Assembly: GCA_905235455.1 (NCBI GenBank)
Contig: CAJOLL010000007.1
Location: 1 to 41,902, forward strand
Source: an uncultured Clostridia bacterium
GTDB taxonomy: Bacteria > Bacillota > Clostridia > Saccharofermentanales > Saccharofermentanaceae
Direction of reading: 5' to 3'
DNA length: 41,902 nt
This document shows positions 2,010 through 39,317 of the stretch, one piece after another. The notes beneath the pieces were generated by a model. It saw only the letters and a list, made by a program, of their open reading frames with translations. It did no database searches and was not told the origin of the DNA. A program made the translations under genes and the position numbers. Within the stretch, counting starts at the first letter, position 1, and each line of letters starts with the position of its first letter.

Positions 2010-2064
2010 TCCCGATCGAAAAGCACCGTCCCGCATTTGGACGGCGCCTGCATTTACAATTGGA

Positions 2065-3423
2065 TCAAAGAATAATGGAGATCGTAAGTTTTTTCTCCGG
2101 ATCAAAGGCCGCAGCAATGCGGCCTTTGTGTTTCTCCACGATCGCCTTGGCCATGGAAAGACCGATGCCGTACCCGCCGGTCTCGGAGTTTCTGGAACTG
2201 TCGGTCCGGTAGAAACGTTCGAAAAGGTGTTTGACGGAGTCTTCCGGGATCACTTCTTCTGTGTCATTGGTGATATCCAGGTGTACGTGGCGCTTGCCCC
2301 CGACGAGCCTGACTTCGATATTTCCGTCTTTTGGACAGTATTTTACGGCGTTGTCGAGAACGATCGAAAGAAGGGAGTCGATCGACTTTTTGTCGCCCTG
2401 GATGTGAACATCTGCTTCGATCTTTTCAGAGATTTTCTTATTTCCGGAAGCTGCCACTGCGGCAAAAGAACCGGCATGTTTTTTTGTCATCTCCGAAAGG
2501 TTAAGATCTTTCATCTCGAGCGTGGTAGTCGTTTCTTCCATTTTCGACAGCGCGATCAGATCTGCCGTGAGTTCCGAAAGTCGCTTCGTTTGTGTCCGGA
2601 TATCTGAAAGCCATTCGTTTTCGGAAGAAGGATCGAAACTTTGCAGATCCATTTCCAGGACATCGGCATCGGCAGAGATGATCGCCAGAGGTGTCTTGAT
2701 CTCGTGGCCCGCGTCAGAGATGAAGCGCTTCTGTTTCTCGTAGCTTTCTGCAACCGGGCGGACAACACGACCGGAGGCGATAAATACCAGGATCCCTACA
2801 CCGAGAAGGCAGAGGAGAGAAACGAAAATACTGATGTTTTTGAAGTTGCGGAAGTGGGCCAGGCTGGCGCCGCAGTCGCGAAAGATGACCATCGTGCAGC
2901 CGGCTTCATCTTCTTGTCCGACAAGATAGCGGTAATCCCCGATGAAGCCGGAGGAACTTCTCTTGCGAAGTGCTTTTTGCGCATATTCGACGGCCTTTGT
3001 CTCCGAAACGGCGGAGATGCGGTTGGTGTCGGCAAAGATAACGTTCTCATTCTCATCGAAAATAACGGTGAAATATCTGGTCTCATAAGCGAGCTCCGGT
3101 GAGTTCATGCGACTTTCATCAAAGCGCATGAAGGAGCGGGCTCTTCTTCCCGGTTCGTCATCAACATTGATCGTCGTTTCGAAATCGGGCATCTCGGGAA
3201 AGCCCTCGCCTGTCCTCGGATCGGTCATATCTTTCGGATCTCGTCCCGCGTTTGGTTCGGCAAAAGCACCGCCGTTGATCATGAGGAGATCTAAGATCTC
3301 GTCACTTTCGGAAACGACCTGGCGGTAGTTGCTGATATTGATGCCTCCGATCAGGATGATCATGACCAAAAGTACGGCAGCCATGGTGATCAATATGAGT
3401 CTTATCCGAAGTTTCCTGATCAT
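2065..3423 (-). CDS. Sensor histidine kinase
   Basis: A 452-residue membrane histidine kinase. A first membrane span lies at about residues 9-28, followed by an extracytoplasmic sensor region of about 160 residues and a second span near 195-215. The H box (DAGHEIKTPLAII) holds the phosphorylated histidine, the N box reads LDNAVKYC, and the G box is GGYGIGLSMAKAIVEKHKG. It overlaps the upstream response regulator by 4 bases (ATGA), so the two are translationally coupled and very likely cognate. The pair closes a VTC/DUF4956/Cthe_2159 operon, which suggests it senses an envelope or polyanion-related state; the ligand is unknown. A perfect 9-bp inverted repeat lies within its last codons (2104-2127). 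Confidence 0.92.
   Translation of the reverse strand: MIRKLRIRLILITMAAVLLVMIILIGGINISNYRQVVSESDEILDLLMINGGAFAEPNAGRDPKDMTDPRTGEGFPEMPDFETTINVDDEPGRRARSFMRFDESRMNSPELAYETRYFTVIFDENENVIFADTNRISAVSETKAVEYAQKALRKRSSSGFIGDYRYLVGQEDEAGCTMVIFRDCGASLAHFRNFKNISIFVSLLCLLGVGILVFIASGRVVRPVAESYEKQKRFISDAGHEIKTPLAIISADADVLEMDLQSFDPSSENEWLSDIRTQTKRLSELTADLIALSKMEETTTTLEMKDLNLSEMTKKHAGSFAAVAASGNKKISEKIEADVHIQGDKKSIDSLLSIVLDNAVKYCPKDGNIEVRLVGGKRHVHLDITNDTEEVIPEDSVKHLFERFYRTDSSRNSETGGYGIGLSMAKAIVEKHKGRIAAAFDPEKKLTISIIL
2104..2127 (+). terminator. Hairpin at convergent gene ends, possible terminator for decarboxylase operon
   Basis: AAAGGCCGC and GCGGCCTTT form a perfect 9-bp stem with a 6-base loop, followed on the plus strand by TGTGTTTCTCC, a moderately T-rich tail. 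It is about 95 bases after the beta-subunit stop. It lies inside the last codons of the convergent kinase gene, where the amino acids RIAAAFD are encoded, so it cannot be a strong terminator on the minus strand without cutting off the kinase message. The terminator role is inferred. Confidence 0.4.
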
Positions 3424-4094
3424 GGTTCGATCTCCAGAGAGTAGCCGGCATTTCGTGTGGCCTTGATCTTAATGTTTGCACCGATCGAGGCGAGTTTCTT
3501 TCTAAGATAGGAAAGGTTTGTCCAAACGACGTTGATGTCCGCATCGGAGTCCAATCCCCAGACCTTTTCCATGAAGCGGTCGGTGGAGATGAGTACTCCC
3601 GGATTTGCCATGAGATATTCCATTATCTGATATTCTTTGGCGGCAAGTTTGACGGAACCTTTATCGGAACTCAGTTCATAGGTGCCGCGGTTGAGGGTAA
3701 CGTTGCCGTAGGAAAGAAGATTATCTGCCGCCGTCGTTACGGATCTGGTGATGGCGCGAAGACGAGCCAGGAGCTCCCGACTCTCAAAAGGCTTGGTCAG
3801 ATAGTCGTTCGCGCCGAGGTCCAGTCCCTCGACTTTGTCATCGATCTGGGATTTTGCCGTCAGCATCATCACGGGAATGTTGATCTTTTGTTCACGGATC
3901 TTTTTCAGGACGGAAAAGCCGTCGATCTTCGGCATCATGACATCTAGGATCGCACAGTCATACGAGCCCTGGAGAAGGTAATCCAGAGCGTCCTGCCCGT
4001 CATAGACCGCGTCGACGGAATAATTATTCTTCGTCAATATGGCAGTGAGTGCCCGCGACATGGACTTTTCGTCTTCTGCCAGCAAAATACGCAT
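3420..4094 (-). CDS. OmpR-family response regulator
   Basis: A 224-residue two-domain regulator. The receiver domain (1 to about 117) has the acidic pair ED at 7-8, the phosphoacceptor Asp in ILDVMMPK near residue 51 and the conserved Lys in YLTKPF near 101. The C-terminal part (about 127-224) is a winged-helix OmpR/PhoB DNA-binding domain with the motif AAKEYQIMEYLMANPG. It is followed by its kinase with a 4-base overlap, and starts 24 bases after the preceding beta-helix gene. The direct repeat at 7011-7027, in front of the operon, has the spacing used by OmpR-family regulators and is a natural autoregulatory target; that link is inference. Confidence 0.93.
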   Translation of the reverse strand: MRILLAEDEKSMSRALTAILTKNNYSVDAVYDGQDALDYLLQGSYDCAILDVMMPKIDGFSVLKKIREQKINIPVMMLTAKSQIDDKVEGLDLGANDYLTKPFESRELLARLRAITRSVTTAADNLLSYGNVTLNRGTYELSSDKGSVKLAAKEYQIMEYLMANPGVLISTDRFMEKVWGLDSDADINVVWTNLSYLRKKLASIGANIKIKATRNAGYSLEIEP

Positions 4095-4118
4095 GACCTG
4101 CTTCTCCTTTCTTATTTT

Positions 4119-5550: not shown

Positions 5551-6237
5551 TTAAAGCACAGGAGTTTCTTTTGGCATGACGGTCGTCGAAAGGATCGCCA
5601 GATTTCCGTTTTTGCAGCGAATTTCGTCGATCAGTGCTTTTTCCGAGGAAACATCGCGCAGATAGATCTCGTAGGTCAGCTTGAAGATGGATCCCATGTC
5701 AGCTGTCTTCGAGGAGATCAGGCGGTGAGAAGTCGTGTACCGACTGAAGGCATCGTCAAATACTTCCGTGTAATTGAGATTTTCCGGAATTACGATGCAA
5801 AGGCTTCTTCGAAGGTCGGAATTATCTGTTCCGAGGCCGAGCTGTGAAAACAGGAACATCGAGATCCCGATGATCAGCAGGAACAATGCCGCGTAGAGAA
5901 TAAAGCCCATGCCGGTCAGAAGGCCGATGGTCATGGCGATGAAGATCGCGGCGATCTCGCCGGCAGTACCCTGGGCGGAACGGAAGCGTACAAGACTGAA
6001 GGTTCCTGCTACCGCGACGCCGGCGCCGATGTTTCCGTTCACCGCCATGATGACGACACAGACGACGGTCGGAAGGATCGCGAGAGTCCCGACAAAAGAA
6101 CTGCTGGAACATCTTTTCCGCTTATATATCAGGGCAAGGAAAAGGCCGAGAAGCAGGGCGCTGAGTACCGGAAATAAAAATGAGGTGACGGAGATCGTCG
6201 TATTCCCCATCAAGGTGTCGTAAATGTTCTTAAGCAT
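5551..6237 (-). CDS. DUF4956 family membrane protein
   Basis: A 228-residue integral membrane protein with about four hydrophobic spans in residues 15-135 and a C-terminal cytoplasmic domain. The segment FSLVRFRSAQGTAGEIAAI between spans is the hallmark of DUF4956. Its start overlaps the end of the VTC-domain gene by 8 bases, so they are translationally coupled. In other bacteria DUF4956 proteins regularly sit beside VTC-domain polymerases, and a joint role in membrane translocation or assembly of a polyanion has been suggested. No biochemical function is established from the sequence. Confidence 0.88.
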   Translation of the reverse strand: MLKNIYDTLMGNTTISVTSFLFPVLSALLLGLFLALIYKRKRCSSSSFVGTLAILPTVVCVVIMAVNGNIGAGVAVAGTFSLVRFRSAQGTAGEIAAIFIAMTIGLLTGMGFILYAALFLLIIGISMFLFSQLGLGTDNSDLRRSLCIVIPENLNYTEVFDDAFSRYTTSHRLISSKTADMGSIFKLTYEIYLRDVSSEKALIDEIRCKNGNLAILSTTVMPKETPVL

Positions 6238-8063: not shown

Positions 8064-8651
8064 ATGGCGAGTGATCAGAGAACGGCAGAAAAGGAGAGAG
8101 AAGAGAGTTTGGCGAATAAAGGATCCGCTTCGAAACCGGAGAAGACCCGGAAGTTTCCCGGCGGGAAGTTCGGAAAAACGATCGTATCTGTAATTGTTGT
8201 TCTTGCAGCCGTAGGCGCACTGTCTGTGCTCCTGTCCTATTACATCTTCCCGGTGGTGACGATTTCCGGGAATTCGGATCCGCACTACACGGATGGTGAC
8301 GTGGTTCTTCTGATGAAGCCTTTCGCGGGAAGACGAGGTCAGCTTTGTGCCATTAAATGGCAGAATAAGCTGATCCTGCGACGGGTGATCGCCTGCTCCG
8401 GAGATACTGTCAGTATCGACGAGGACGGGAATGTTTTCCTGAATGGAGAACTTCTTTCGGAGCCTTATGTTACGGCAAAAGCACTTGGCAAGTGCGATCA
8501 GGTTTTTCCCTATCAGGTTCCGGAAGGGAAAGTGTTTGTGCTCGGAGATGATCGCGAAAATGCGGCAGATAGCAGAAATAAGGCGATGGGTGCTGTCGAT
8601 GAAGATGATATTCAGGGGTACGTGATCGGCAGGATCTGGCCATGGACATAG
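8064..8651 (+). CDS. Signal peptidase I-like protein of pilus operon (SipA-like, altered catalytic motifs)
   Basis: A 195-residue membrane protein of the S26 signal peptidase I fold: membrane span at about 39-60, then ISGNSDPHYTDGD, LILRRVIACSGD and GDDRENAADSR, matching boxes B, D and E. In active enzymes the first box reads SGxSMxPT and the second has Lys-Arg before V/I-I. Here Ser71 is kept, but the following Met is lost with a one-residue shortening, and Arg106 stands where the general-base Lys is expected. Streptococcal pilus loci contain SipA proteins that lack catalytic residues and act in pilus assembly, and this first gene of the pilus operon resembles that situation. ATG 8064 has no clear ribosome site; an in-frame TTG at 8109 behind AAGGAGAG is an alternative start. 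Confidence 0.8.
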   Translation: MASDQRTAEKEREESLANKGSASKPEKTRKFPGGKFGKTIVSVIVVLAAVGALSVLLSYYIFPVVTISGNSDPHYTDGDVVLLMKPFAGRRGQLCAIKWQNKLILRRVIACSGDTVSIDEDGNVFLNGELLSEPYVTAKALGKCDQVFPYQVPEGKVFVLGDDRENAADSRNKAMGAVDEDDIQGYVIGRIWPWT

Positions 8652-8670
8652 TGGTTGTAAAGGAGAGACT

Positions 8671-11397
8671 ATGGCCCGAAAAATGAGGAAAACAGCGAAT
8701 AAGGCACAGATGACCGGGGAACTCCGAAAAAAGCTGCTCTCGGTTTCTGTTGCGCTGTGCATGCTCCTTTCGGGAAATAGCCTGCTCCCGCTTCTTGCCT
8801 CTCCGATGCTTCGCGCGGATGATGCGCAAACTTTCTCGGAGACTGCTGCGGATGAAAGTGATACGCTGAATACTGCTGTTGAAGATACAGTGCCTGACAC
8901 CGGGCTTCCGAAGGAAAAAGATCCGGAAGAAATGACGGAGCCCCAAACTCCTGAAACCGGCAGCGAAGAAGCTCCGGAAGATGTCGGAACTTCTTCGGCG
9001 GATCCGGGTGCGAGGGATGAGGTTATGGACGGACCGGAATCTTCAGAGAGCGATGATCCGGATGGTCCTTCGGAGAAAGATGTCTCTGACGAATCGGAGA
9101 TTTCGGATACCTCTCTTACTGAAGAAACAACAGAGCCCGAGACAGAGCCGGTGTCTGACAATGACGGCGTATCCCCGTCGCAGCCGGGAAATGACGGTTC
9201 TTCCCGGCAGAAGTCCTATATCACCTATACGGCCGAGACCGAATCCGGCATCAAGGTGCAGGCAACTGCCCCGACAGGTGCTTTTGCAAAAAAAGTAACC
9301 ATGAAGGCTTCCGACGTGACGATCGATGCGGAGATGATGGCAATGGCAAATTCCTCGCTGGAAGAAAACCGGGAGGTTAAGGACGCGCTTGCCGTGGATA
9401 TCCGCTTTATCGATGATGACGGCAATGTCCTCGAACCGCTCGACGGCTGTGCTGTACAGGTAAGTATCACTCTTCCCGCGGCAAAAGCACTCGAAGGCGA
9501 TTCTTTCTCAGTCCTGCACTTGACAGATGATGGCGCCACGGAAGTGGAAGATGCGCAGCTCGATGAGAATGGCGGAAGCTTCACCACGGAGAGCTTCTCG
9601 ATATATGTGCTTACCGCCGTCGGCGAAGTGCACGGACAGCAGGTGCACGATTATCTGCCATCATTACCGTGGTTTCCGAGTACGGATGTAAATGGCGATG
9701 GCAGATTAACTATTCCAAACAGTAATCAACAACCTTATATTGTGAGAGTGGGCGACAGTATAACGCTGATAGGAAAGTCAACCAACCGGACGGATACATT
9801 TGCAATTGATACCGGATTTTCCGGAGGAAACGCTCATCTTACATTAGACGGCAGTATGAATAAAGAACTGGATGAAACGAATACCTGGAATACCACGGCG
9901 GTTTATCAAGCGGATACACCGGGTATGGTAAGACTTACGTTTGCGGACGGAAATCACGCCAATTACAATGACTTCTACATAGCTGTTGTGCCTTCTGACA
10001 CGAATACTGTGGTAGATATGCGTGACTACGGTACCTGGCAACAGTACAGTAATTCAAATAATCCGTACTGTGTTTCTGAGGGGGATTGGATCAGGTTCCT
10101 TTCCAATGAGGCTGGATTCTGGTTCCGAGACAATGACCCTCAGCTTGGACAATACAGAGGAAACGGTGTTATCCGCCGGTATAATGATACGCAAAATGGA
10201 AACGGATATAGATATAATGACGTTTACGCACAAGGACAAGGTACGAATGTCGTGAATGTGACTTGTGATGGTCAAACCAGAAGCATGTATGTACGGGTGC
10301 TTCCCGGAAAAACGCTCGACCATGCGGATATTGAGATCGCGGATGGCGGTAAATATACGTCCACCAGGATCTATATCGAAAACGGGAAACTCTATAAGCA
10401 GGTGGACTACTATTTCACCTACGTTGAAGAAGTAAACGAGTGTATCCTTTATCAATCGAACGGTGAAGCGGTCAGGTTCTTCGACGGAAATGGAAACACC
10501 CTCTGGTATGACGAAGCGAATGGAATCCCGAGAACCGGCTATAGGACGGATGATTACGATATAAATCCGACAACTACCGTAGGACAGTCTCAGTACGAGC
10601 TTACATCAAAATATAAGTTCCTTGAAAATGGTGAGCCGGATATAAGTACGATAGGAAGGGTTAAATACAGTTACAGTGAAGTAGATCATGCTTCCTTCGA
10701 TGTAAAGATGTATCGCATTCTTTCGGCATCAAGAATATATGAATATGATCCGGAGAAGCCGCAGGGGCAGGAATGGGTTTTCAGTAGTTCCACCGCCTAT
10801 GAGACAGGTTCGGGTCCGAGAACCAGTATGGATCATGTCGTATTTAATCTGACACATACACATGTAGTCGATGCTTACAATAAATGTCCGGATCATTCAG
10901 GACTGGACTTCACACTCCATTCGAATTCCGCGATGATCCAGCTGGCAGCAAGTAAGGAGCTCCTGCACGGAACACTGGGGAACGGTGATTTTCAATTTAA
11001 TCTCACGGACTCCGCAGGAAACCTTATCCAGCAGGTGGGAAATCTTGCTGACGGAACGGTGATCTTTGATGAGCTTCACTTTGAAAAAGCAGGTACATAT
11101 ACGTACTATATCTCTGAAAGAGTAGATCCGGCCAAAACAAATATTCATTACGATGAGCGAGTCTATGAAGTGAATATCCTGGTTACGGAAAAGGCAGACG
11201 GGACGATCGAGGCGGAGATCATTCTCCCGAACCGAGATCTTTCCGATGTGGACTATAAGTTTGTGAACGAGGTGATGTACACCTTGCCGGATACGGGCGG
11301 TGGCGGGACCGCCATATTCTACCAGGCAGGCGCGGTGCTCCTGATATCTGCCGCGATCCTGCTGTTCCTGAAAAAGGCCAAGGTGATGGACCTATGA
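8671..11397 (+). CDS. Large LPDTG-anchored pilus adhesin with FctA-type domain
   Basis: A 908-residue surface protein. A long signal peptide (about 1-49) is followed by a low-complexity acidic Ser/Thr/Pro/Glu stalk (about 50-188). Residues about 189-320 form a beta-rich domain (TAETESGIKVQATAPTGAF, VSITLPAAKALEG). About 330-740 is a Tyr/Asn/Gly-rich region with no recognised family. About 755-868 resembles an FctA/Spy0128-type pilin domain with isopeptide-forming potential (GDFQFNLTDSAGN, FEKAGTYTYYISE). The sorting signal LPDTG is at 872-876, with a hydrophobic helix and KKAK tail. As the largest subunit preceding the backbone pilin it is the likely tip adhesin. The middle region uses more AT-rich codons (ata, aat) than the flanks, which could reflect diversification or exchange of the ligand-binding part. 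The ligand is unknown. Confidence 0.87.
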   Translation: MARKMRKTANKAQMTGELRKKLLSVSVALCMLLSGNSLLPLLASPMLRADDAQTFSETAADESDTLNTAVEDTVPDTGLPKEKDPEEMTEPQTPETGSEEAPEDVGTSSADPGARDEVMDGPESSESDDPDGPSEKDVSDESEISDTSLTEETTEPETEPVSDNDGVSPSQPGNDGSSRQKSYITYTAETESGIKVQATAPTGAFAKKVTMKASDVTIDAEMMAMANSSLEENREVKDALAVDIRFIDDDGNVLEPLDGCAVQVSITLPAAKALEGDSFSVLHLTDDGATEVEDAQLDENGGSFTTESFSIYVLTAVGEVHGQQVHDYLPSLPWFPSTDVNGDGRLTIPNSNQQPYIVRVGDSITLIGKSTNRTDTFAIDTGFSGGNAHLTLDGSMNKELDETNTWNTTAVYQADTPGMVRLTFADGNHANYNDFYIAVVPSDTNTVVDMRDYGTWQQYSNSNNPYCVSEGDWIRFLSNEAGFWFRDNDPQLGQYRGNGVIRRYNDTQNGNGYRYNDVYAQGQGTNVVNVTCDGQTRSMYVRVLPGKTLDHADIEIADGGKYTSTRIYIENGKLYKQVDYYFTYVEEVNECILYQSNGEAVRFFDGNGNTLWYDEANGIPRTGYRTDDYDINPTTTVGQSQYELTSKYKFLENGEPDISTIGRVKYSYSEVDHASFDVKMYRILSASRIYEYDPEKPQGQEWVFSSSTAYETGSGPRTSMDHVVFNLTHTHVVDAYNKCPDHSGLDFTLHSNSAMIQLAASKELLHGTLGNGDFQFNLTDSAGNLIQQVGNLADGTVIFDELHFEKAGTYTYYISERVDPAKTNIHYDERVYEVNILVTEKADGTIEAEIILPNRDLSDVDYKFVNEVMYTLPDTGGGGTAIFYQAGAVLLISAAILLFLKKAKVMDL

Positions 11398-11450: not shown

Positions 11451-13154
11451 ATGATTATGACAAAGACAATGAGAAAATTTATCTCTGTATTCCTGAGTGT
11501 GGTAATGGTCCTCGCTTTGGGAATAACGGTAATGGCGGCGGATCCGGATCCGTATACCATTACGATCAACAAAGCCAGTGCCAATGACAAATCTGCGCAC
11601 AGCTATGAAGTGTACCAGATCTTTGATGCGAAGGTAGACAATGACAAGCTCTACGACATCACATGGGGTTCCGGTGTTGACGGTGATGCTGCACTTACAG
11701 AACTTAAGTCTGTCACGGAATTCAGCAGCTGCACTACTCTGAAGGATGTGCTTGATATTTTGGAAGAAGCGGAGGACAACTCTTCTGTAGTGGATGCTTT
11801 TGCCACGGCAGTATCGAAGCACCTCACTTCCACGAAGAAGGAAGGCGCGATGGCCGCGACAGAAACCACTGCGAATATCGGCGTTGAGAAAACCGGTTAC
11901 TATCTGGTAAAAGATACGATCACCGGTGGCGCGAACGGTCAGGAAGGCGCGGTCTCCAAGTTCATGCTCGATGTTGTCAAGACCACAACGGCCGTTACCG
12001 TGAATACGAAGGAAGTAGTTCCGGAGCTTGATAAGAAGATCGTTACCGGCTCGACCAGGGACGTGAAGAATCAGGCTTCCGTCGGTGACGCGATCACTTT
12101 CGAACTGACATCGGAAGTCCCGGATCTCCGACAATCCGGATATAACAAGTACTGCTTTGTCATGAACGATACTCTCTCTTCCGGTCTGACATATCTCGGC
12201 AATGATGCACCGACAGTTAAGATCGGAAGCACGACCCTTACGGAGAATACAGACTTTACTTTCGAAAAGACAACTGCAACCGATGGAACAACAACTCTGA
12301 AGATCGTCTTCAAGGATATGCTGACAAAAGCACAGACACTGTACGGTCAGCAGATCGTTGTTACCTATCAGGCAACACTTAATGAGAACGCAGACGTTAC
12401 CGATGCCGGTAACCCGAATACGGCAAACCTCATCTATTCGAACGATCCGAGCCACAACTATACCAGCGATGAACCCGGAAACGGCGATCCGGCAGGTAAG
12501 ACTCCGGACAAAGAAACGATTACCTATACCACAGGTGTCAGCGTCATCAAGGTCGATGAAAACGATCAGACCATGAGACTTCCGGGCGCGGAGTTTAAGA
12601 TCGAAGGAACATCTGCCGGACAGGTCATCTCGAAAACAAATGAATATACTCTGGATAATACAAACGGTACGTACTATAAGCTCAAGACCGGTGAATACAC
12701 AGATGTCGCACCAAATGCGACAACCGAAGATAATTATGCCAGCCAGACAGATAAGTACAAGCTGGTAGAGAATACCGAGCTCCTAGAGGCAACTGAGAGT
12801 ATCATAAAGAGCGCTGTAGGTACAGATGGTGAATTGACTTTTAACGGACTGGGCGCCGGTACCTATACGATTACCGAGACCAAGGCACCGGACGGATACG
12901 TACTGGATCCGACACCCCGCACGGTAGAGATTACCTGCACATTTGAAAATGATAAGCCGGTATGGAGCTATAAGCTGGATTCCAATGCAGCTGTTCCGAA
13001 TCAGCTTCAGTTTAAAGTAACGAACAAGAAGACATCTGATCTTCCGAAAACCGGTGGTATCGGTACGACCATCTTCTATGTCGGAGGTGCAGTCCTCGTT
13101 CTGGGCGGCGTCGTACTTCTGGTGCTGAAGAAGAGAAGTTCTGAAAAAGAGTAA
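11451..13154 (+). CDS. LPKTG backbone pilin, isopeptide-forming
   Basis: A 567-residue major pilin. Signal peptide to about residue 27 (ending VMAADPDP). The N-terminal domain contains the pilin-like segment HSYEVYQIFDAKV. A D2-type isopeptide domain begins around 190 (VPELDKKIVTGS, ASVGDAITFELTSEVPD). A C-terminal SpaA/Cna-B-like domain has the E box YTITETKAPDGYVL. The sorting motif LPKTG is at 531-535, followed by a membrane helix and KKRSSEKE. Class C sortases polymerise such subunits through a lysine of one and the LPxTG of the next; the gene for one follows directly. AGAAAGGA precedes the ATG at 11451; the ATG two codons later is an alternative. Confidence 0.93.
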   Translation: MIMTKTMRKFISVFLSVVMVLALGITVMAADPDPYTITINKASANDKSAHSYEVYQIFDAKVDNDKLYDITWGSGVDGDAALTELKSVTEFSSCTTLKDVLDILEEAEDNSSVVDAFATAVSKHLTSTKKEGAMAATETTANIGVEKTGYYLVKDTITGGANGQEGAVSKFMLDVVKTTTAVTVNTKEVVPELDKKIVTGSTRDVKNQASVGDAITFELTSEVPDLRQSGYNKYCFVMNDTLSSGLTYLGNDAPTVKIGSTTLTENTDFTFEKTTATDGTTTLKIVFKDMLTKAQTLYGQQIVVTYQATLNENADVTDAGNPNTANLIYSNDPSHNYTSDEPGNGDPAGKTPDKETITYTTGVSVIKVDENDQTMRLPGAEFKIEGTSAGQVISKTNEYTLDNTNGTYYKLKTGEYTDVAPNATTEDNYASQTDKYKLVENTELLEATESIIKSAVGTDGELTFNGLGAGTYTITETKAPDGYVLDPTPRTVEITCTFENDKPVWSYKLDSNAAVPNQLQFKVTNKKTSDLPKTGGIGTTIFYVGGAVLVLGGVVLLVLKKRSSEKE

Positions 13155-16938: not shown

Positions 16939-17028
16939 TTAAATAATACTGAAATCAAATTGCCTTGTGTCCGAGGATCAGTCCTTTCGAAAAGCACTTG
17001 ACCACGAACCTCTGGCTAAACATTTGTC

Positions 17029-17118: not shown

Positions 17119-17283
17119 CACGCGGGAGATCTCGGAAAAGATGCGGATATGTGTCGGAATATGTTGATAAATACGATATCGGCGACGGACGGTGACGGAA
17201 AAGTGATTTTGAAACTTGCGATCACGAATGTTGCAAAAAGAGTGCTTTTCGAGGTGCGGATATCTTCCGAAGGGATTACTTTC

Positions 17284-21193: not shown

Positions 21194-21341
21194 TTCCGAT
21201 ACACTCCATGCAGACCCGCACCGCCTTATTGAGGACAGCTGTGACCTGACCGCGTGAGATACCGTACACGATCAGGGCGATCCCGACGAGCATTACGGCG
21301 ATCGCAAGGAAGTTCTTTTCGATAAGGAAGTGCTTTTTCAT
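21186..21341 (-). CDS. CD1871A-type CxxC micro-protein
   Basis: A 51-residue protein: KK-rich start, one membrane span (about 12-29), and the C-terminal signature VCMECIGIG, a CxxC at the membrane face. This matches the CD1871A family of CxxC micro-proteins found in Clostridia beside 4Fe-4S and thioredoxin-like genes. AAGGAG lies 6 bases before the ATG at 21341. It overlaps the downstream 4Fe-4S gene by 8 bases and starts 37 bases after the TlpA-like stop. Its likely role is thiol or electron relay in that trio. Codons 2-4 contain one copy of the dispersed GTGCTTTT motif. Confidence 0.85.
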   Translation of the reverse strand: MKKHFLIEKNFLAIAVMLVGIALIVYGISRGQVTAVLNKAVRVCMECIGIG

Positions 21342-23433: not shown

Positions 23434-24300
23434 TCATTTCCCGTATTTCATAATGAGCGATTCTCTTAAGATCTTCAGTGCAAGCGCCGTGCTGCAGCCG
23501 CTCTGGTCATAAGGCGGGGAGAGCTCCACGAAGTCCATGCCCACGAGGTTTATGTCTTTTAGTTGCATCAGGCAGATCCGAAGCTCCTCGAAAGAAAGCC
23601 CGCCGGCTTCCGGTGTTCCGGTTCCCGGAAATTCTCTCGGGTCGAGCACGTCGAGGTCCACCGTCAGATAGACCGGAACGGGCTTTTCGGAAAGCCTCAG
23701 AAGCGCGAGCACTTCGTCAAAATTATCAGCCCTGAAACGCTCCGTTTTAGTGTGCGTTTTTGCAAATTCAAATTCTTCTTTCGTGCCGGAGCGGATCCCG
23801 AACTGGTAGATCCTGCCATCTCCGATGATGTCGTGGATGCGGCGCAGTACGCAGGCATGCGAGAGCTTCGATCCGATGTAGTCTTCACGAAGGTCGCAAT
23901 GTGCGTCGAAGTGCAAAACGACGACGTCCGGATATTTTTCCGCCACCGCGCGGAAAGCACCGAGCGTGACCAGGTGTTCGCCGCCGAGCATGATCGGGAG
24001 TTTGCCGTCGTTTAGTATCGTTCTGGTCTCTTCTTCGATGAGGGCAAGTGCTTTTTCCGCATCACCGAAAGGAAGGTCCAGGTCACCGGAATCGCAGATC
24101 GGGGCATCCTCGAGATCCTTGTCCTGATAGGGGCTGAAGGACTCAAGTCCGATGCTCTCGTTTCGCATCGCGGAAGGACCGAATCTCGTTCCCGGGCGGA
24201 AAGAAGTGGTGCCGTCGAACGGGGCGCCGAAGAGAACCGCCTTCGAGTCATCATAAGAGCAGTTCAATGCGAAGAAGTTCTTTTCGATACGGTCGATCAT
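23434..24300 (-). CDS. speB: Agmatinase-family ureohydrolase
   Basis: A 288-residue ureohydrolase. Manganese-ligand motifs are GGEHLVTLGA, VLHFDAHCDLR and TVDLDVLDPREFPGTGTPE. It hydrolyses agmatine (or a related guanidino compound such as aminopropylagmatine) to release urea and putrescine or spermidine. The ATG overlaps the speE stop by 4 bases, so the two are coupled. The next gene downstream, the CANSDH-type dehydrogenase, begins after a gap of about 130 bases. The family is certain; substrate choice between agmatine and aminopropylagmatine is open. Confidence 0.92.
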   Translation of the reverse strand: MIDRIEKNFFALNCSYDDSKAVLFGAPFDGTTSFRPGTRFGPSAMRNESIGLESFSPYQDKDLEDAPICDSGDLDLPFGDAEKALALIEEETRTILNDGKLPIMLGGEHLVTLGAFRAVAEKYPDVVVLHFDAHCDLREDYIGSKLSHACVLRRIHDIIGDGRIYQFGIRSGTKEEFEFAKTHTKTERFRADNFDEVLALLRLSEKPVPVYLTVDLDVLDPREFPGTGTPEAGGLSFEELRICLMQLKDINLVGMDFVELSPPYDQSGCSTALALKILRESLIMKYGK

Positions 24301-25196
24301 GTTTTCTCACCTCCCAGTGTTTTTGTCGTGTCGTTATCCGGAAGCTCTTCCATCGCTTCCAGAAGTTTCTGCACGTAGTTCGGAAGCGCAAAAGCACCTC
24401 GGTGCAGGTTCGTGTTGTAGTATTTTGTCTCGATGCCGAGTTCTTTCCAATCGGCGGCATGCATATCGCGTACCGGATGGTATTTTTTCGATGCGAATCC
24501 GAACAGCCAGTGGCCGGAAGGATAGGTCGGGATGTGAGCCTGATATACGCGGCAGATCGGGAAGTTTGTGTGAATGCGCTTGTGTGCGCGCTGCATCGCA
24601 CGTGCGTCGTTGGCATAGAAGGGACTCTCGTTCTGGTTGACCATGATGCCGTCTTCCTTGAGCGCGGTAAAGCAGTTGCCGTAGAACTCCTTCGTAAAAA
24701 GGCCTTCGCCGGGACCGAACGGATCGGTGGAATCGACGAGGATCAGATCGTATTCGTTCTCGTGGTGACGGACATATTTGAGACCGTCTTCGAAGTGGCA
24801 CTGCACACGCGGGTCATCAAAACCGCAGGCGGTGAAGGGGAGATACTTCTTGGCGACCTTAACGACTTCTTCATCGATCTCGACGACATCGATGTGCCGG
24901 ATCGTTTCGTAGCGGGTGAGCTCTCTTACGACACCGCCGTCACCGGCACCGATGACCAGTACTTTTTCCACCTTCGGATGTACGCACATCGGCACATGGA
25001 CCAGCATCTCATGATAAATGAACTCATCTTTCTGCGTGAGCATCATGTAGCCGTCGAGCGTCAGGAAACGGCCGAACTCCGGCGATTCGAAAACATCGAT
25101 CTGCTGGAAGTCACTCTTGCCGCTGTAAAGCTGCTTGTCGACCTGGATCGCCAGTTTGACGTGCGGGGTATGAAATTCAGAAAACCAAAGATCCAT
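24297..25196 (-). CDS. speE: Polyamine aminopropyltransferase (spermidine synthase)
   Basis: A 299-residue aminopropyltransferase that moves the aminopropyl group from decarboxylated AdoMet to putrescine, or to agmatine in some bacteria. Seen are the N-terminal beta domain (QVDKQLYSGKSDFQQIDVFESPEFGRFLTLDG), the glycine-rich VLVIGAGDGGVVREL, and the catalytic region LILVDSTDPFGPGEGLFTKEFY. AAGGAG lies 13 bases before the ATG, a long spacing. It is translationally coupled to speB. The decarboxylated AdoMet supplier speD lies about 2.7 kb away on the same strand. Confidence 0.95.
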   Translation of the reverse strand: MDLWFSEFHTPHVKLAIQVDKQLYSGKSDFQQIDVFESPEFGRFLTLDGYMMLTQKDEFIYHEMLVHVPMCVHPKVEKVLVIGAGDGGVVRELTRYETIRHIDVVEIDEEVVKVAKKYLPFTACGFDDPRVQCHFEDGLKYVRHHENEYDLILVDSTDPFGPGEGLFTKEFYGNCFTALKEDGIMVNQNESPFYANDARAMQRAHKRIHTNFPICRVYQAHIPTYPSGHWLFGFASKKYHPVRDMHAADWKELGIETKYYNTNLHRGAFALPNYVQKLLEAMEELPDNDTTKTLGGEKT

Positions 25197-25404
25197 TTTC
25201 TATTTATTTCTCCTTAGTCTGTACCTCGATTCATTCTCGTGCCGCCGGCCGCTGATCTCGCGAAGACAGGTGCTTTTCGCGAAGTACGGCATGAAGCGAT
25301 GCGAGATGACACCTATATAATACCACTAGTGACTCGATTACACATCGAAAAGCTCTTTGATCTGCTCCCGAAAAGATTGAATATTGAAAGGGAAACTTTT
25401 TGAC

Positions 25405-28971: not shown

Positions 28972-29172
28972 CATTGCAGGTGCTTTTCCTTCTTTGAAAA
29001 ACACTTCCACAATGAAACAAAGATATCACGGAAAGCAAGGAATTGCAATAGTTTTATGGAATATATAGCGTAAAGAAAAAGTTAGCATGAAGGGATATCC
29101 AAAGAGGGGAGCGCAGACTGATTCTTGCGGAAGTGCTTTTGAGGCGATAGAATAGTAAAGTATTTATCCTTA

Positions 29173-32375: not shown

Positions 32376-33663
32376 AGAAATCTTTGTCCCTTCTCTTGAT
32401 CTCTTCAAGCACGATCTCGCGGTATTCTTTCGCGAAATCTCTGTTCTCATACTGGCTGAAATCTACTTCTTCAGTCTCTGTCGGCTCGTACGGAATCGTC
32501 TCCTCGATGTTCTGCGCGGAACGCTTCGCAAATACGAGGCTTTCGAGGAGAGAATTGCTGCCGAGACGGTTCTTGCCGTGAACACCCGTGCAGGAAGTCT
32601 CGCCGATCGCATAGAGGTTGTCCATCGATGTTCTGCCCTTAAGGTCGACTTCGATACCGCCCATGAAGTAGTGCTGTGCCGGGGTTACCGGGAAAGGCTC
32701 CTTCAGGATATCGTAGCCTTCCTCTTTGCAGTGCTCGAGGATGTTCGGGAAGTGGCTCTTGACGAGTTCCGGATCGAGGTGGGTCACATCAAGCCAGACG
32801 AAGCCTCTGCCGTCGATCGCCATCTGCTTCTTGATCGCAGCCGAAACGACGTCACGCGGCTGAAGTTCGTCGGTGAAGCGCTCCATGTTCTTGTTCCGGA
32901 GCACGCCGCCCTCGCCTCTTACCGCCTCGGAGATGAGGAAGGATCTGCCCGGCTTCTCGGAATAGAGGGATGTCGGGTGGATCTGGATATAGTTGATGTC
33001 CTTAAGAAGGACGTTATGCTTCAGCGCGATCGCGAGGGCGTCGCCCGTGATGTGACGGAAAGCGGTGCTGTGCCGAAAGAGTCCGCCGATACCGCCTGTT
33101 GCAAGTACTACGGCTTTGCCGAATACCGCGTGAAAAGCACCGTCCGCATCTTGTGTGATGATGCCTTTGCAGACATTCTTTTCACAGATCAGATCGACCA
33201 TGGTCGTGTGCTCGTGAAGATCGATGTTCTTCTTTTCACGGACATTCTGCAGAAGCTTACTGGTGATCTCCTGGCCGGTGATGTCCTCGTGGTGGAGGAT
33301 ACGGGAAGCGGAGTGACCGCCTTCCTTCGTAAGATCCAGGTCGTCGCCCTTTTTATCAAAGTTGACGTGATAGTCGAGGAGTTCACGGATGATGACCGGA
33401 GACTGACGTATCATGGTATCGACGGCCTTTCTCGAGTTCTCATAGTGACCGGCACGCAGAGTATCCTCAAAGTAGTCTTCGTAATCCTCGGAGTCCTTAA
33501 GCGCCGCAATACCGCCCTGGGCGAGATAAGAAGCGCTGTTCTCGAGAGTATCCTTTGTGATCATGTAAATGGAAAGATTTTCCGGAAGATGAAGTGCGCA
33601 GAAAAGACCTGCGGCGCCGGTGCCGACGATAACGACATCAGCTGAACTAGTGGAATAGGACAT
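32356..33663 (-). CDS. nadB: L-aspartate oxidase
   Basis: A 435-residue flavoprotein that oxidises aspartate to iminoaspartate, the first step of NAD synthesis. The N-terminal FAD motif is VVIVGTGAAGLFCALHL; further motifs are SYLAQGGIAAL, EGGHSASRILHHEDITGQEI, VLATGGIGGLF, QIHPTSLYSE, FLISEAVRGEGG, PAQHYFMGGIEVD and GKNRLGSNSLLESLVFAKR. At 435 residues the C-terminal helical domain is shorter than in the roughly 530-residue enteric enzymes, as in other Clostridia. The ATG at 33663 follows AGGGGG. The quinolinate synthase gene nadA that completes the pathway is not in the window. Confidence 0.95.
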   Translation of the reverse strand: MSYSTSSADVVIVGTGAAGLFCALHLPENLSIYMITKDTLENSASYLAQGGIAALKDSEDYEDYFEDTLRAGHYENSRKAVDTMIRQSPVIIRELLDYHVNFDKKGDDLDLTKEGGHSASRILHHEDITGQEITSKLLQNVREKKNIDLHEHTTMVDLICEKNVCKGIITQDADGAFHAVFGKAVVLATGGIGGLFRHSTAFRHITGDALAIALKHNVLLKDINYIQIHPTSLYSEKPGRSFLISEAVRGEGGVLRNKNMERFTDELQPRDVVSAAIKKQMAIDGRGFVWLDVTHLDPELVKSHFPNILEHCKEEGYDILKEPFPVTPAQHYFMGGIEVDLKGRTSMDNLYAIGETSCTGVHGKNRLGSNSLLESLVFAKRSAQNIEETIPYEPTETEEVDFSQYENRDFAKEYREIVLEEIKRRDKDFYEQWCT

Positions 33664-33689: not shown

Positions 33690-33718
33690 TTTTTAGAAAG
33701 TGCTTTTCCCGCTGTCAA
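33690..33718 (-). promoter_or_regulatory. nadB promoter
   Basis: Minus-strand TTGACA (complement of 33713-33718), a 17-base spacer, then TAAAAA (complement of 33690-33695) as a weak -10. The spacer contains a whole copy of the dispersed motif (GAAAAGCAC, 33700-33708). The leader would be about 20 bases. Confidence 0.45.
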
Positions 33719-33881: not shown

Positions 33882-34745
33882 ATGAAACGCGACATCATCG
33901 GGGACATTTTTCTCGGAGGAGTGCTGCTTTCTTTGCTCTTTCTGTTCTCTTTTCCCGCATATTTCTGTTACAGCCGCAATGTGCCGCGTGACATTTCCCT
34001 CGTTGAAAGGATCATGAGCGTTTGTTTTCTCCTCGGCCTGACCATGTCCATTATCTGGTCGTGCTGGAAGAAAAAAGTCTGGGCCATGCTCGGTATCTGC
34101 ACATTCGGGCTTCTGGCATATCTGCCGAAGTGGTTTTTGCCGAAGATCGACGCGCGTATCGCCAAAAACGGTAAAAATCTGATCGATTCGTTTTTCTCGA
34201 TGACCTTAAGCCGCATCCATGAACTGATACATGCCCCGTTTACCGGTCTTCTCGGAATGATGTCCGAAAAAACGGTCGAAAAGCTCCCGTATCTGATCCT
34301 TCCGGTCGCGGCGATCGCATATGTATGCACAAGGATCGTTGCTTTCTATCACGACGCTTATGTGAAGGAAAAGAAGCAGATCCACGATTTTAATCATTTC
34401 AGGAAGACCAGCGAGATCCGTACACCGGTCATGGCCTTCGATATGCCGGAAGAAGCCCCGTCGCCTCTCGGCACGATCGTTCTGAACGAAAAGGCCGAGA
34501 TCGAAAAGGAGACTTTCCCGATCAAGCCGCAGGAAAATGCGCAGACCGTGACCAATGTCCTTTCGTCGGACGAGCCGGTGAAACTGCCGGAGGGCGATGC
34601 GACAGTCGTGATCCCGCTTGCGGCCCACGCCCCTTCGTCAAAAGCACCTGAAGCGGCACCAAAAGAAGATGAGCATCTCGATTTCCCGGATGTGCACGGT
34701 GAAGCAGAGAAGATAGACGTTTTCGGCGACAGCGATCTGGACTGA
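33882..34745 (+). CDS. Unknown membrane protein with long cytoplasmic tail
   Basis: A 287-residue protein. Hydrophobic spans are at about 7-29, 38-55 and 58-73, plus one at about 130-149; the last 120 residues are polar, acidic and proline-containing (FDMPEEAPSPLGTIVLNEKAEIEKE and on to FGDSDLD), probably disordered. I do not recognise a family. GAAAGGAG lies 8 bases before the ATG at 33882, and the upstream open frame would include the promoter, so it is not used. The hemolysin-III-like gene follows after 66 bases without an evident terminator and may be co-transcribed. Confidence 0.75.
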   Translation: MKRDIIGDIFLGGVLLSLLFLFSFPAYFCYSRNVPRDISLVERIMSVCFLLGLTMSIIWSCWKKKVWAMLGICTFGLLAYLPKWFLPKIDARIAKNGKNLIDSFFSMTLSRIHELIHAPFTGLLGMMSEKTVEKLPYLILPVAAIAYVCTRIVAFYHDAYVKEKKQIHDFNHFRKTSEIRTPVMAFDMPEEAPSPLGTIVLNEKAEIEKETFPIKPQENAQTVTNVLSSDEPVKLPEGDATVVIPLAAHAPSSKAPEAAPKEDEHLDFPDVHGEAEKIDVFGDSDLD

Positions 34746-35736: not shown

Positions 35737-37434
35737 ATGAAAAAGAATCTGAAGATCATGGCGCTGGTGCTCGCGGCTTCGTTGATCGTGCCGCTTGCCG
35801 CCTGCTCGAAAAAGACAGAGGAAACCAGAAAAAAGAGAAAGACGAAGAAGACCACTTCTGTCGAAGAAACGAAAAAAACTAAAAATACCACGCAGAGAGA
35901 GACAGAAGAGCCTGTCGATACCACCGATACAAAAGTACCGTCCGCACCTACGGACACAACCTCGGATCTTCTGATCACGCTTCCGGACGAAAACTGCGCG
36001 ATCGAATACCCGACATCGGAAACCTTTCATTATTCCATGGATCTGACCCTGGATACAGAAAAGAACCAGGTCGGCGGGCATGTGGATATCGAGTTTTTCA
36101 ACTATTCTGCGGACACATGGGACGAACTGTGCTTTCGTGACTATTCCAGCCTTTTTGAAGATGGAAGCGGAGTTGCAGCTTCGGCGTACACACAGACAAA
36201 CGGCGCGCTGACCGAGATCGATAACATCACGGACGGCCGTTCCGGAGAAAAGATCGATTACAGCCGCGATACCGATGTATCTGTTGTATGGGTCAAGCTT
36301 TCTTCGCCTCTTGCTCCGAATGAAAAGATGACATTGTCTTATGATTTTACGGCCCGGATCCCGACGATCCCCGACCGCTATGGCGTGAGCGACGGCGTAT
36401 ATAATGTTACGAATTTCTATCCGATCCTTGCCGAATATACAGAGTCGGGCTGGTCGCATGAGGCGTTCTACACATTGGGCGAATGCTTCTTCTCGGAGAT
36501 CTCCCAATACGATGTCACTCTCACGGTTCCGGAAGAATATATGGTGCTTTCTACGGGAACGGAAGCTTCTTCGCGGAACAGTGACGGAAAGACCACCTAT
36601 CAGTTCGACGCGCCGAACGTCCGCGATTTCGTATTCTGCGCATGCGCGTCTTTTGAAAAGATCGAAGGAGACTATGACGGCACACATATCAATGTCGTCT
36701 ATGACAAGGCGCATCCGGCATCTGATCAGATGGATGAGTGCCTGAAGGCTTGCCTGAAGGCTTCGCAGGATTCACTTGCTGCCTTTAACGCGGCATTCGG
36801 CAAATACCCGTATCCGGAACTGGACGTTATCCTTGCACCGATCGATGCCGGAGGTATGGAGTATCCGAATCTGGTCATCATTACCGTAGATGATTTTTAC
36901 TGTTCTTCGAACCAATATGAAGCGATCCCGTTCCAGACCATTTCCGGGGTCGTGGCCCATGAGATCGGGCATCAGTGGTTTATGGGCATCGTCGGAAGTA
37001 ATTCCGGTATGGAGCCGTGGCTGGATGAGTCTTTTGCTTCTTATACGGAGATCGTCTATGCCGAGTATCTTGGTGTGGATTCGATGTATTATTACTACTC
37101 GGACACTATTGAAGATCTGAAAGATCCGGTTACGCAGAGTTCTCTGAAGGCGTCGGACTACATTCCGATCAACAGATCCTACTATTCATTCAGTAATGAC
37201 GGCGCGTATCTCATGTCCGCGTATGAGTTTGGAAAGATGGCGCTTTACCAGATGGAAGAGATCCTCGGGAGAGAGAATTTTCACGGCATCATCCGTGAAT
37301 ATGTCCGGAGAAACGCTTTTACCAATTCGACGGCACAGCGCTTCTTCGAGGTGCTTTTCGAGGCGGCGGGAACAAATAACGAAGATCTGAATAAGCTCGT
37401 CGAAGGATGCTTCGAAGGCGTCGGACCAAGCTGA
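35737..37434 (+). CDS. M1-family zinc metallopeptidase lipoprotein
   Basis: A 565-residue exported peptidase. Signal peptide with lipobox LAAC (Cys23), a Lys/Thr/Glu-rich linker to about 80, an N-terminal beta domain, then the catalytic domain: GGMEYPNLVII in place of the GAMEN aminopeptidase motif, the zinc site HEIGHQWF near residues 408-412, and the third ligand Glu in WLDESFASYTE. M1 enzymes remove N-terminal residues from peptides. GGMEY rather than GAMEN is common among bacterial lipoprotein members, so exact specificity is uncertain. AAGGAG precedes the ATG. It is monocistronic, with a strong terminator downstream. Confidence 0.9.
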   Translation: MKKNLKIMALVLAASLIVPLAACSKKTEETRKKRKTKKTTSVEETKKTKNTTQRETEEPVDTTDTKVPSAPTDTTSDLLITLPDENCAIEYPTSETFHYSMDLTLDTEKNQVGGHVDIEFFNYSADTWDELCFRDYSSLFEDGSGVAASAYTQTNGALTEIDNITDGRSGEKIDYSRDTDVSVVWVKLSSPLAPNEKMTLSYDFTARIPTIPDRYGVSDGVYNVTNFYPILAEYTESGWSHEAFYTLGECFFSEISQYDVTLTVPEEYMVLSTGTEASSRNSDGKTTYQFDAPNVRDFVFCACASFEKIEGDYDGTHINVVYDKAHPASDQMDECLKACLKASQDSLAAFNAAFGKYPYPELDVILAPIDAGGMEYPNLVIITVDDFYCSSNQYEAIPFQTISGVVAHEIGHQWFMGIVGSNSGMEPWLDESFASYTEIVYAEYLGVDSMYYYYSDTIEDLKDPVTQSSLKASDYIPINRSYYSFSNDGAYLMSAYEFGKMALYQMEEILGRENFHGIIREYVRRNAFTNSTAQRFFEVLFEAAGTNNEDLNKLVEGCFEGVGPS

Positions 37435-37459
37435 GTAAAAAAGTGCTTTTCGATAAACA

Positions 37460-37577: not shown

Positions 37578-39161
37578 ATGTCTAAGCAGGATAGGTCAGG
37601 GAAAGCAAAGACCAAAAAACATATGAAAACTTCCAAGAAAAACAAGATCATCGTGATCCTCGTCGTGGTCGCGCTGGTCCTTACGAGCTTTTTGTATTTT
37701 GCTCATATCACCGGATTCTGGGCGAAGGTGATTCCGGGTGCTTCGATCAAGCATACGGTCGACGGCAAAGAGAAGACGGTCAAGAACGTCCCGATCGTGG
37801 AGATGAACTATTACTACTCCATGGCTTATAGCCAGATGATCAACAGCGGTATCATCGATTACGAATCCGATCTTGATCTGGTTATCGATGAGACATCCGG
37901 CCAGACATATCGTCAGAGGATCTGGGAAACAGCGGCGAACAACGTCCAGCAGGAATACATCCTGGCGAAGGCGGCTTCTGATGCAGGTTACGATGACAGA
38001 GCTTCCGAGAGATATGCAGAAACCCTGGTCGAAGATATGCGTTCCATGACGAACTACTACAACGCCATCCGCGGCACAAACATGACGATGGATCAGTATC
38101 TGCAGAGCACATACGGCCCGGGCATGACGGTCCAGACCTATCGTAAGATCATGCAGAGAAAAGCACTGATCGACGAGTACACCGCGTACTATAAGCTGGT
38201 TCAGTGCGCTCCGACCACAGAAGAGATCATGGCAAAGTATAACGAAGATCCTTCGTCCTACGAGAGAGTGCAGATTCAGGCATACTTCATCAGCGCTAAC
38301 CTCACTGCCGATACGACGGGAGAAGAAAAGACAAAGGCGTTGGAAGAAGCTTCCAAGAAAGCTCACGAGATCGCAGACGGATGTGTAAACGCGGTTGAGT
38401 TCCAGACAAGAGTCTCGGCGGTCTGCACGGAAGAGTACAGAAACCGTATGATCAACGGCGAAGACCCGACGACGGTCAGCGATCTTACCAAGGAGCAGGT
38501 CAAGCAGTATAACGAAGAATTTGCCGAGCTCTGTTTTGCGGAAGGCACAAAGGAAAATACGACCATGGTATTCGAGGACAGCGAGCAGCAGGGTGCTTTC
38601 GCAGTGCTTTTCGAGAAGAAGTACATCGACGAAGAGCCGACGGCGCAGCTTCGTTTCCTGCAGTTGAACGACGATCTCATGCAGGACCTTTCCAAGACGC
38701 CGGAAGAGAAGGCAGAGTCTTTTACGAAGTATCATAAGCAGGCAGAAGAGATCATGGCCGGCATTACTTCTGAGGATGAGTTCATCGCAGCCGTAAAAGA
38801 GCACTCCACAGACTCTTCTACATATATTAACGGCGGCATGATGTACGGCATCAGACAGGACAACACCAACTACTTCAAGCCGACGATCCTTGAAGAAGGC
38901 GCTGATCCGGTACTTCCGGAAGAAGATGCCAAGCTGATCGAGTGGCTCTACAGCGCAGACAGAAAGCGCGGCGACATGATCATCATCGATTGCGCAAGCT
39001 CTGTAAAGATCTTCTACTACATCGATGTCATCCCGGGTTATCAGAACGACATCCGCACGGATATGATCACAGAGAAGTACGACGATTGGTACAACGGACT
39101 GATCAACGATTCGTCCTATTCGACAGTAGTAAACAACGGTCTGATCGATTTCTTTACGTAA
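37578..39161 (+). CDS. Membrane-anchored parvulin/PrsA-like foldase, degenerate rotamase
   Basis: A 527-residue protein with a very basic cytoplasmic start (KAKTKKHMKTSKKNKI), one membrane anchor at about 25-45 and a large extracytoplasmic part. The N-terminal half is helical and resembles the SurA/PrsA chaperone region (RQRIWETAANNVQQEYILAKAA). A later segment, EDEFIAAVKEHSTDSSTYINGGMMYGI, has the spacing of the parvulin signature (S-D-S-x-x-x-GG-x-x-G). The rotamase domain is otherwise weak, so chaperone activity is more likely than isomerase activity. AAGGAAGG lies 8 bases before the ATG. It is monocistronic; the rpoB promoter follows. Confidence 0.72.
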   Translation: MSKQDRSGKAKTKKHMKTSKKNKIIVILVVVALVLTSFLYFAHITGFWAKVIPGASIKHTVDGKEKTVKNVPIVEMNYYYSMAYSQMINSGIIDYESDLDLVIDETSGQTYRQRIWETAANNVQQEYILAKAASDAGYDDRASERYAETLVEDMRSMTNYYNAIRGTNMTMDQYLQSTYGPGMTVQTYRKIMQRKALIDEYTAYYKLVQCAPTTEEIMAKYNEDPSSYERVQIQAYFISANLTADTTGEEKTKALEEASKKAHEIADGCVNAVEFQTRVSAVCTEEYRNRMINGEDPTTVSDLTKEQVKQYNEEFAELCFAEGTKENTTMVFEDSEQQGAFAVLFEKKYIDEEPTAQLRFLQLNDDLMQDLSKTPEEKAESFTKYHKQAEEIMAGITSEDEFIAAVKEHSTDSSTYINGGMMYGIRQDNTNYFKPTILEEGADPVLPEEDAKLIEWLYSADRKRGDMIIIDCASSVKIFYYIDVIPGYQNDIRTDMITEKYDDWYNGLINDSSYSTVVNNGLIDFFT

Positions 39162-39193: not shown

Positions 39194-39222
39194 TTGACAC
39201 TGGAAAAAGATCGTGATATCAT
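39194..39222 (+). promoter_or_regulatory. rpoB promoter (extended -10)
   Basis: TTGACA (39194-39199) and TATCAT (39217-39222) are 17 bases apart, and TGA immediately precedes the -10 (extended -10). The RNA should start near 39229. It is one of the best promoters in the window and shows that rpoB does not depend solely on an upstream ribosomal-protein operon. Confidence 0.85.
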
Positions 39223-39237
39223 TCTATACTGCGTTAC

Positions 39238-39264
39238 AATGGGTAGGGCTACTTTACCCATTTT
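39238..39264 (+). terminator. Promoter-proximal hairpin, possible rpoB attenuator
   Basis: AATGGGTA (39238-39245) pairs with TACCCATT (39255-39262), followed by TT; the T run at 39261-39264 is part of and just beyond the stem. It lies within the first 35 bases of the expected transcript. This may be an attenuator or an RNA-stabilising 5' hairpin. Confidence 0.5.
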
Positions 39265-39317
39265 AACGGAAAAGCACGGCGGAGCTTGCAAAGCCTGCTT
39301 TTGGAGTATATAGGAAG

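Follow-up and report, generated by a model that had tools for sequence, protein, structure and literature searches.

A dispersed, non-palindromic octamer as a candidate DNA uptake sequence in one genus of Clostridia

The contig CAJOLL010000007.1 from an uncultured Clostridia bacterium of the family Saccharofermentanaceae (GenBank assembly GCA_905235455.1)—the window, meaning here the whole stretch of 41,902 nucleotides—carries 26 copies of the octamer GTGCTTTT, a word that we take, with a probability of roughly 0.65, to be the self-recognition DNA uptake sequence of a single Clostridia genus, serving pilus-mediated natural transformation. The word is strongly over-represented and symmetrical between strands, is restricted to one genus within its order, is scarce near conjugative relaxases, has a dialect one base away and occurs in genomes that encode uptake machinery. 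We place it among uptake sequences by its distribution, which fits that class better than the other kinds of signal tested, and infer from the same evidence recognition at uptake, a receptor and transformation itself.

A pattern search on both strands recovered all 26 copies listed in an earlier note made from the letters of the window, with one start shifted by a base (Table 1). Dinucleotide shuffles of the window (n = 100) held a mean of 1.09 copies (standard deviation 0.99, maximum 4), and GTGCTTTT was the top-ranked 8-mer under an order-3 Markov model (26 copies, 3.0 expected), confirming the claimed over-representation. The counts given for the immediate context were also reproduced: a purine precedes 24 of the 26 copies, the next base is C in 13, G in 8, T in 5 and never A, the two orientations are near equal (14 plus, 12 minus) and one-base variants are rare (GTGCTTTC seven times, GTGCTTTA and GTGCTTTG once each). 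Genes called with a codon-usage gene caller made for this analysis placed nine copies in 5.1 kb of intergenic DNA and 17 in 36.8 kb of genes, so that the split described in the note stands while its 5-fold density contrast falls to ~3.8-fold.

The note had proposed that the count be extended to the complete genome, and the abundance holds there: the window's own assembly (G000; 2.17 Mb, 161 contigs) contains 933 copies, 456 forward and 477 reverse, and the reversed word, used as a control, only 84, 42 per strand. Such abundance might simply follow from biased use of codons or oligonucleotides, and the copies within genes do favour certain frames (Gly/Ser-Ala-Phe, Val-Leu-Phe and Lys-Ala-Leu). 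Yet 354 called genes in sampled sequence held 164 copies, against a mean of 21.3 after synonymous shuffling within genes (60 rounds; no round exceeded 19 copies on one strand or 21 on the other), and the 39 intergenic copies compare with 2.2 to 8.5 expected under Markov models of orders 1 to 4. Codon preference, offered in the note as a partial cause, can thus account for a small part of the coding copies and not for their bulk, and the intergenic enrichment survives the modelling of composition. At the effect size seen, these two tests rule out an artefact of codon use or composition, and we regard the by-product account as very improbable.

High density of the word marks one genus (g1) within its order, an outcome of the comparison with related genomes that had also been suggested. 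The 23 genomes of g1 hold 296–1402 copies each (113–536 per Mb, median 380), 18 of them with 220–536 per Mb, whereas 165 genomes from 29 other genera of the order—92 from the family of g1 and 73 from 25 further genera—reach at most 103 per Mb (in G007). In 100 kb from one genome of each of the sister genera g2 to g5, enrichment of GTGCTTTT went no further than 7 copies against 4.2, and no GTGC-type word was found. The nearest relatives of the window by one protein are metagenome-assembled genomes, such as Clostridiales bacterium RGIG2713 from goat omasum; five of the six nearest carry 3.1–6.3 copies per 10 kb and the sixth (L023) carries 0.7.

Word counts in stretches of genome G111 brought to light a dialect, GTGCATTT, that differs from GTGCTTTT by a single base (T to A). 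Whole genomes contain 664 copies of this A-dialect word in G111, 577 in G113 and 594 in G114, against 53–157 in the other 20 members of the genus, and the same three genomes still hold 354, 739 and 662 copies, respectively, of the T-dialect word GTGCTTTT. The two words are placed differently: across the stretches from G111 and G114, density between genes relative to that within them is 2.77-fold for GTGCATTT and 0.84-fold for GTGCTTTT, the latter dividing 7:77 between intergenic and coding DNA where T-dialect genomes have 63:221 (Fisher P 0.004; P 0.008 for GTGCTTTT versus GTGCATTT within the same A-dialect genomes, each site being treated as independent in both tests). Because old copies are scarce between genes, those left in A-dialect genomes look like fading relics kept by coding constraint. 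A tree from two genes (pilB for 22 genus members and gdh for 18, with G114 placed by gdh alone) joined G113 and G114 as sisters with support of 100 and put G111 elsewhere with weak support, a topology compatible with either one or two origins of the A-dialect.

The word is also scarce near conjugative relaxases. Matches to relaxases numbered 14, in eight genus genomes, and we examined 11 of them on ten stretches (from G096, G099, G100, G103, G107 and G110), the remainder being those of the word-poor genomes G094 and G098 and a partial one in G100. Within 5 kb of these 11 matches there are seven copies, where 40.7 are expected from the density of each genome; the ten stretches taken whole, rather than as mapped elements, hold 20 against 63.7, and composition alone predicts 5.2 to 7.2. 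Eight of the ten hold between zero and three copies, and two show no depletion (L268, six copies against 5.3 expected; L270, four against 2.4).

Flanking bases indicate that the octamer is part of something longer. Since the flanks of all copies pooled partly reflect codon context, of which the control word GTTCTTTT gives a weaker version, we relied on intergenic sites, setting 91 copies of the word (both dialects) against 174 copies of eleven control words. In position-by-position tests, uncorrected for their number, a chi-square >15 was reached at −16, −14, −13 (A), −8 (C or G), −3 (A or C), −2 (A) and −1 (A or G) upstream and +8 (C), +9 (G), +10 (C), +11 (G), +14 (G), +16 (A) and +24 (G) downstream. 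The extended word is roughly [AC]-A-[AG]-GTGCTTTT-C-[GC]-C and, with individual positions constrained between −16 and +16, seems to sit within a site of about 30 bp. Copies are conserved as well, which the earlier note had thought worth checking. In five of the nearest named relatives (the sixth, L023, has one copy and was omitted), orthologous copies were kept in 30 of 45 cases, where flank identity predicts ~15; in 45 non-independent pairs of ten T-dialect pilus loci, without weak and A-dialect members, they were kept in 100 of 247, against ~47 predicted. This is about twice the prediction, and 14 pooled control words reached ~1.2-fold (50 of 126, ~41 expected; 240 of 912, ~196 expected).

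Machinery suited to uptake is encoded in the genus. Genome G105 has a type IVa pilus locus, pilD-pilB-pilT-pilC-pilM-pilN-pilO, that also encodes two small and two minor pilins and a large protein that matches no family; the part from pilD through the second minor pilin is matched in 15 other genus members (the G100 locus is cut off near its end), three of which lack a match to the large protein, and in the window's own genome the contig carries just pilD, pilB and the beginning of the gene that follows. A PilB-type ATPase was found in 22 of the 23 genus genomes, ComEA in 22 and ComEC in 21, the search for ComEA being confined to the genus. Family profile comparison of the G105 minor pilins gave no receptor-type match, and the second matches ComGD weakly, at a score below the cut-off.

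On the reading proposed here, a surface receptor, for which the type IV pilus encoded next to pilB-pilT is the likeliest site, would bind double-stranded DNA bearing the word, retraction of the pilus driven by PilT would pass this DNA to ComEA and ComEC, and the imported strand would recombine with the chromosome. DNA with the word would enter more often, and copies would therefore build up at any site that tolerates them, on either strand and both within and between genes; elements delivered by conjugation would lack the word, and a one-base shift in the specificity of the receptor would slowly convert a genome to a new dialect. The acting filament could be the type IV pilus or a competence pseudopilus; according to a review, it is a competence pseudopilus and not type IV pili that carries out the early step in competent monoderms, Micrococcus excepted (PMC6916266).

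Several observations weigh against this reading. Five weak members of the genus (G094, G093, G111, G104 and G098, 113–150 copies per Mb) come near the densest outsider, and while the dialect accounts for G111, the weakness of the other four has no such explanation, despite their PilB, ComEA and ComEC; no separate dialect was recognised in samples of 80–330 kb from these four. The word TACTGGGTAT, considered as a dialect of G098, was rejected, as it occurs in three stretches (L112, L115 and L125), mostly as one-strand rows in one of them, and looks like a protein-coding repeat rather than a dispersed signal. The ratio of GTGCTTTT to the reversed word reaches 24 outside the genus (G044, 120 against five copies, only 57 per Mb), and is a poor yardstick there because the reversed word is rare. 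In two of the four samples from sister genera other words are strongly enriched and may be signals of those genera: the palindrome TTTTCGAAAA, perhaps a different signal of genus g4, occurs 24 times against 2.7 in 100 kb of G006, in all five stretches (L176–L180), and words containing TTTTCG are over-represented in G013 of genus g5 (L171–L175), where TTAGTACGTA and its relatives cluster in two stretches.

The machinery, too, reaches beyond the genus: of the 92 family genomes outside it, 88 have a PilB-type match (best E below 1e-80) and 88 have ComEC, which is present in 109 of all 115 family genomes. PilB and ComEC being equally common in genera poor in the word, such machinery permits uptake and does not explain the restriction to one genus: the competence genes that the note had suggested looking for are present in g1, and the presence of PilB and ComEC does not predict the word. 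Nor did variation in the minor pilins follow dialect significantly; in one of them two dialect genomes share four exclusive residues, which ranks seventh among 120 genome pairs. Replacement of T by A at orthologous positions was found at 3 of 49 distinct sites against 6 of 223 for the control (P 0.21, not significant), the striking uncorrected count of 20 in 100 having come from a few sites that recur in many genomes. In each conservation set, two of the 14 control words were kept at a higher ratio than the motif (CTGCTTTC and GGATCTTT among nearest relatives, TTGCTTTT and GCTGTTTT in pilus loci).

Placement between genes also counts for less than the window suggests. In an unmasked sample of ~424 kb from G000 (N removed), GTGCTTTT has a density of 0.724 per kb in intergenic and 0.443 per kb in genic DNA, 1.63-fold, and the ratio is 1.79 in a larger T-dialect set. 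Control words give 1.33 (GTTCTTTT) and 1.96 (the reversed word, with only 5 and 16 copies), so the enrichment is no greater than for a control word, these ratios do not establish that the T dialect favours intergenic DNA in itself, and that claim of the earlier note, at ~1.6-fold genome-wide, was overstated. Close pairs are not enriched either (whatever the orientation, 16 gaps are <200 bp, where 18.4 are expected at random, standard deviation 3.8); with copies present in tandem, convergent and divergent gaps (0.66, 0.72 and 0.99 per kb, respectively), this led us to reject a role as terminator or paired element.

A further point concerns recombination. All 23 genus genomes have an AddA-like match (E 2.2e-118 or better, with the curated cut-off passed only by G113), so a Chi-type reader may exist, and GTGCTTTT could be a Chi-like signal at which an AddAB-type helicase–nuclease of the genus spares self DNA and starts RecA loading. 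Like Chi, the word is a strongly over-represented octamer, and its scarcity near relaxases recalls the report that Chi sites are rarer in recently acquired genes; the same source describes E. coli Chi as polarised to the leading strand (PMC8022716). In contrast, GTGCTTTT has no bias towards replication strand or gene strand, a check that the earlier note had named: 106 copies in G000 stretches are leading and 89 lagging (strand taken from the GC skew of each stretch, one skewless stretch with eight copies being excluded), and coding copies lie 80 on the gene strand and 84 opposite. Consecutive copies are not co-oriented, with 110 neighbouring pairs on opposite strands and 73 on the same (P 0.008; for GTGCATTT, 50 opposite and 48 same). 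The sequences that orient FtsK and SpoIIIE (KOPS/SRS), which are strongly polarised along the replichore, are like Chi polarised signals that this evidence does not support. Constraint over about 30 bp and the presence of AddA-like matches across the family, when the word is abundant only in this genus, tell further against Chi; lacking replication-strand polarity, a Chi-like role fits less well than uptake, and we consider it unlikely.

A word dispersed over both strands in hundreds of copies, confined to a genus and better conserved than its flanks, would also suit a site that organises or marks the chromosome inside the cell—bound by a nucleoid protein, or methylated, in the manner of the cyanobacterial HIP1, a very over-represented palindrome that contains a methylase site—with selection acting on the resident chromosome and newly acquired elements still without the word. 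HIP1 is listed as a palindrome in PMC1939737; GTGCTTTT resembles it as a strongly over-represented short oligonucleotide and differs in having no palindrome. Spacing of the copies is near random (coefficient of variation 0.92 against 0.98, standard deviation 0.07), and a joint one-base change at hundreds of sites would be hard to achieve without biased transfer. We hold such an intracellular site to be quite improbable, a shade more so than Chi. Among the roles put forward in the earlier note, DNA uptake is thus favoured over the Chi-like one, with a methylation or nucleoid site remaining as a rival.

Known uptake systems offer closer parallels. The DNA uptake sequences (DUS) of the Neisseriaceae, bound by the receptor ComP, are likewise short, non-palindromic and lineage-restricted words with hundreds to thousands of copies, dialects and type IV pilus machinery; their letters are unrelated to GTGCTTTT, and Neisseria copies often stand in close pairs, a feature that is not universal and is not enriched here. 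The uptake signal sequences (USS) of the Pasteurellaceae resemble our word in having a core with an extended motif and two dialects, and AAGTGC is common to the context of GTGCTTTT and the core of Hin-USS, which may be coincidence; the remaining letters and the phylum differ, and the USS receptor is only predicted. The two USS dialects are named Hin-USS and Apl-USS in a 2025 paper, according to which Neisseriaceae and Pasteurellaceae are the only families known with such an uptake system (PMC12616744). Simonsiella muelleri, of the Neisseriaceae, is reported to carry two DUS dialects an A/T transversion apart in one genome (PMC3630211), a close parallel to G113 and G114, and the distribution of DUS is described as atypical in conjugative elements (PMC7371117), as is that of our word. 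Unlike DUS, the present word belongs to Clostridia rather than Betaproteobacteria and is a candidate uptake word, and unlike the ComP system it comes with minor pilins that, in G105, match no receptor-type family.

Veillonella parvula is another member of the Firmicutes. In that species, genomic DNA was reported to be favoured over the product of polymerase chain reaction, and the study considered it improbable that an uptake sequence was involved (PMC5397411). Among the matches listed in a search of the open-access literature, titles and abstract openings described no such word for Clostridia. We lean slightly towards counting the genus as a third independent origin of sequence-specific uptake of self DNA, with a retractable type IV pilus, a one-base change of dialect, relics and barriers to gene flow. 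If so, with an instance from a distant phylum added to the two known, the biased-uptake model could be tested comparatively, and there would be a new receptor to look for; natural transformation in this genus would be suggested, its members would gain a genome-only marker of foreign DNA, and the dialect genomes would be a natural experiment on change of recognition.

Table 1. Positions of the GTGCTTTT copies in the window (function marked † assigned by eye).
Position	Strand	Location
2019..2026	-	Intergenic, convergent gap
2970..2977	+	In gene, histidine-kinase-like†
3262..3269	-	In same gene as 2970 copy
5634..5641	+	In gene
8477..8484	-	In gene, signal-peptidase-like†
9278..9285	+	In gene, surface-protein-like†
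9483..9490	-	In same gene as 9278 copy
12326..12333	-	In gene, surface-protein-like†
16990..16997	-	Intergenic, upstream of glutamate dehydrogenase gene
17242..17249	+	Intergenic, same gap as 16990 copy
20471..20478	-	In gene
21330..21337	+	In small called open reading frame, may not be a gene
23294..23301	+	At 5' end of saccharopine-dehydrogenase-like gene
24048..24055	+	In gene, agmatinase-like†
24390..24397	-	In spermidine synthase gene
25270..25277	+	Intergenic, divergent gap
28980..28987	+	Intergenic, divergent gap
29133..29140	+	Intergenic, same gap as 28980 copy
33133..33140	-	In gene, nadB-like†
33700..33707	+	Intergenic, divergent gap
34640..34647	-	In gene
37351..37358	+	In gene, metallopeptidase-like†
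37443..37450	+	Intergenic, directly after metallopeptidase-like gene
38159..38166	-	In gene (38160 in the earlier note)
38604..38611	+	In same gene as 38159 copy
39270..39277	-	Intergenic, tandem gap

Other words are mildly over-represented in the G000 sample (GGTGTCGG, 48 against 16; GCGATCGC, 68 against 30). Stretches of G111 hold 64 copies of GCGATCGC against 22 and 24 of CTATAACG against 3.9, the latter occurring 17 times against 2.3 in stretches of G114.

Within the window, a polyamine cluster at 17284–28733 comprises a decarboxylase, a saccharopine-dehydrogenase-like protein, spermidine synthase, an Orn/Lys/Arg decarboxylase and S-adenosylmethionine decarboxylase, together with an agmatinase-like gene recognised by eye. 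The region 8064–15383, read by eye, encodes large surface proteins with C-termini like sorting signals, adjoining sortase-like and signal-peptidase-like genes, and resembles a sortase-assembled pilus locus. The gene for the beta subunit of a sodium-pumping oxaloacetate decarboxylase (824–2009) is split between two overlapping frames, with positions 2–149 of PF03977 in frame 824–1594 and positions 143–349 in frame 1347–2009, which reflects either a genuine frameshift or faulty assembly.

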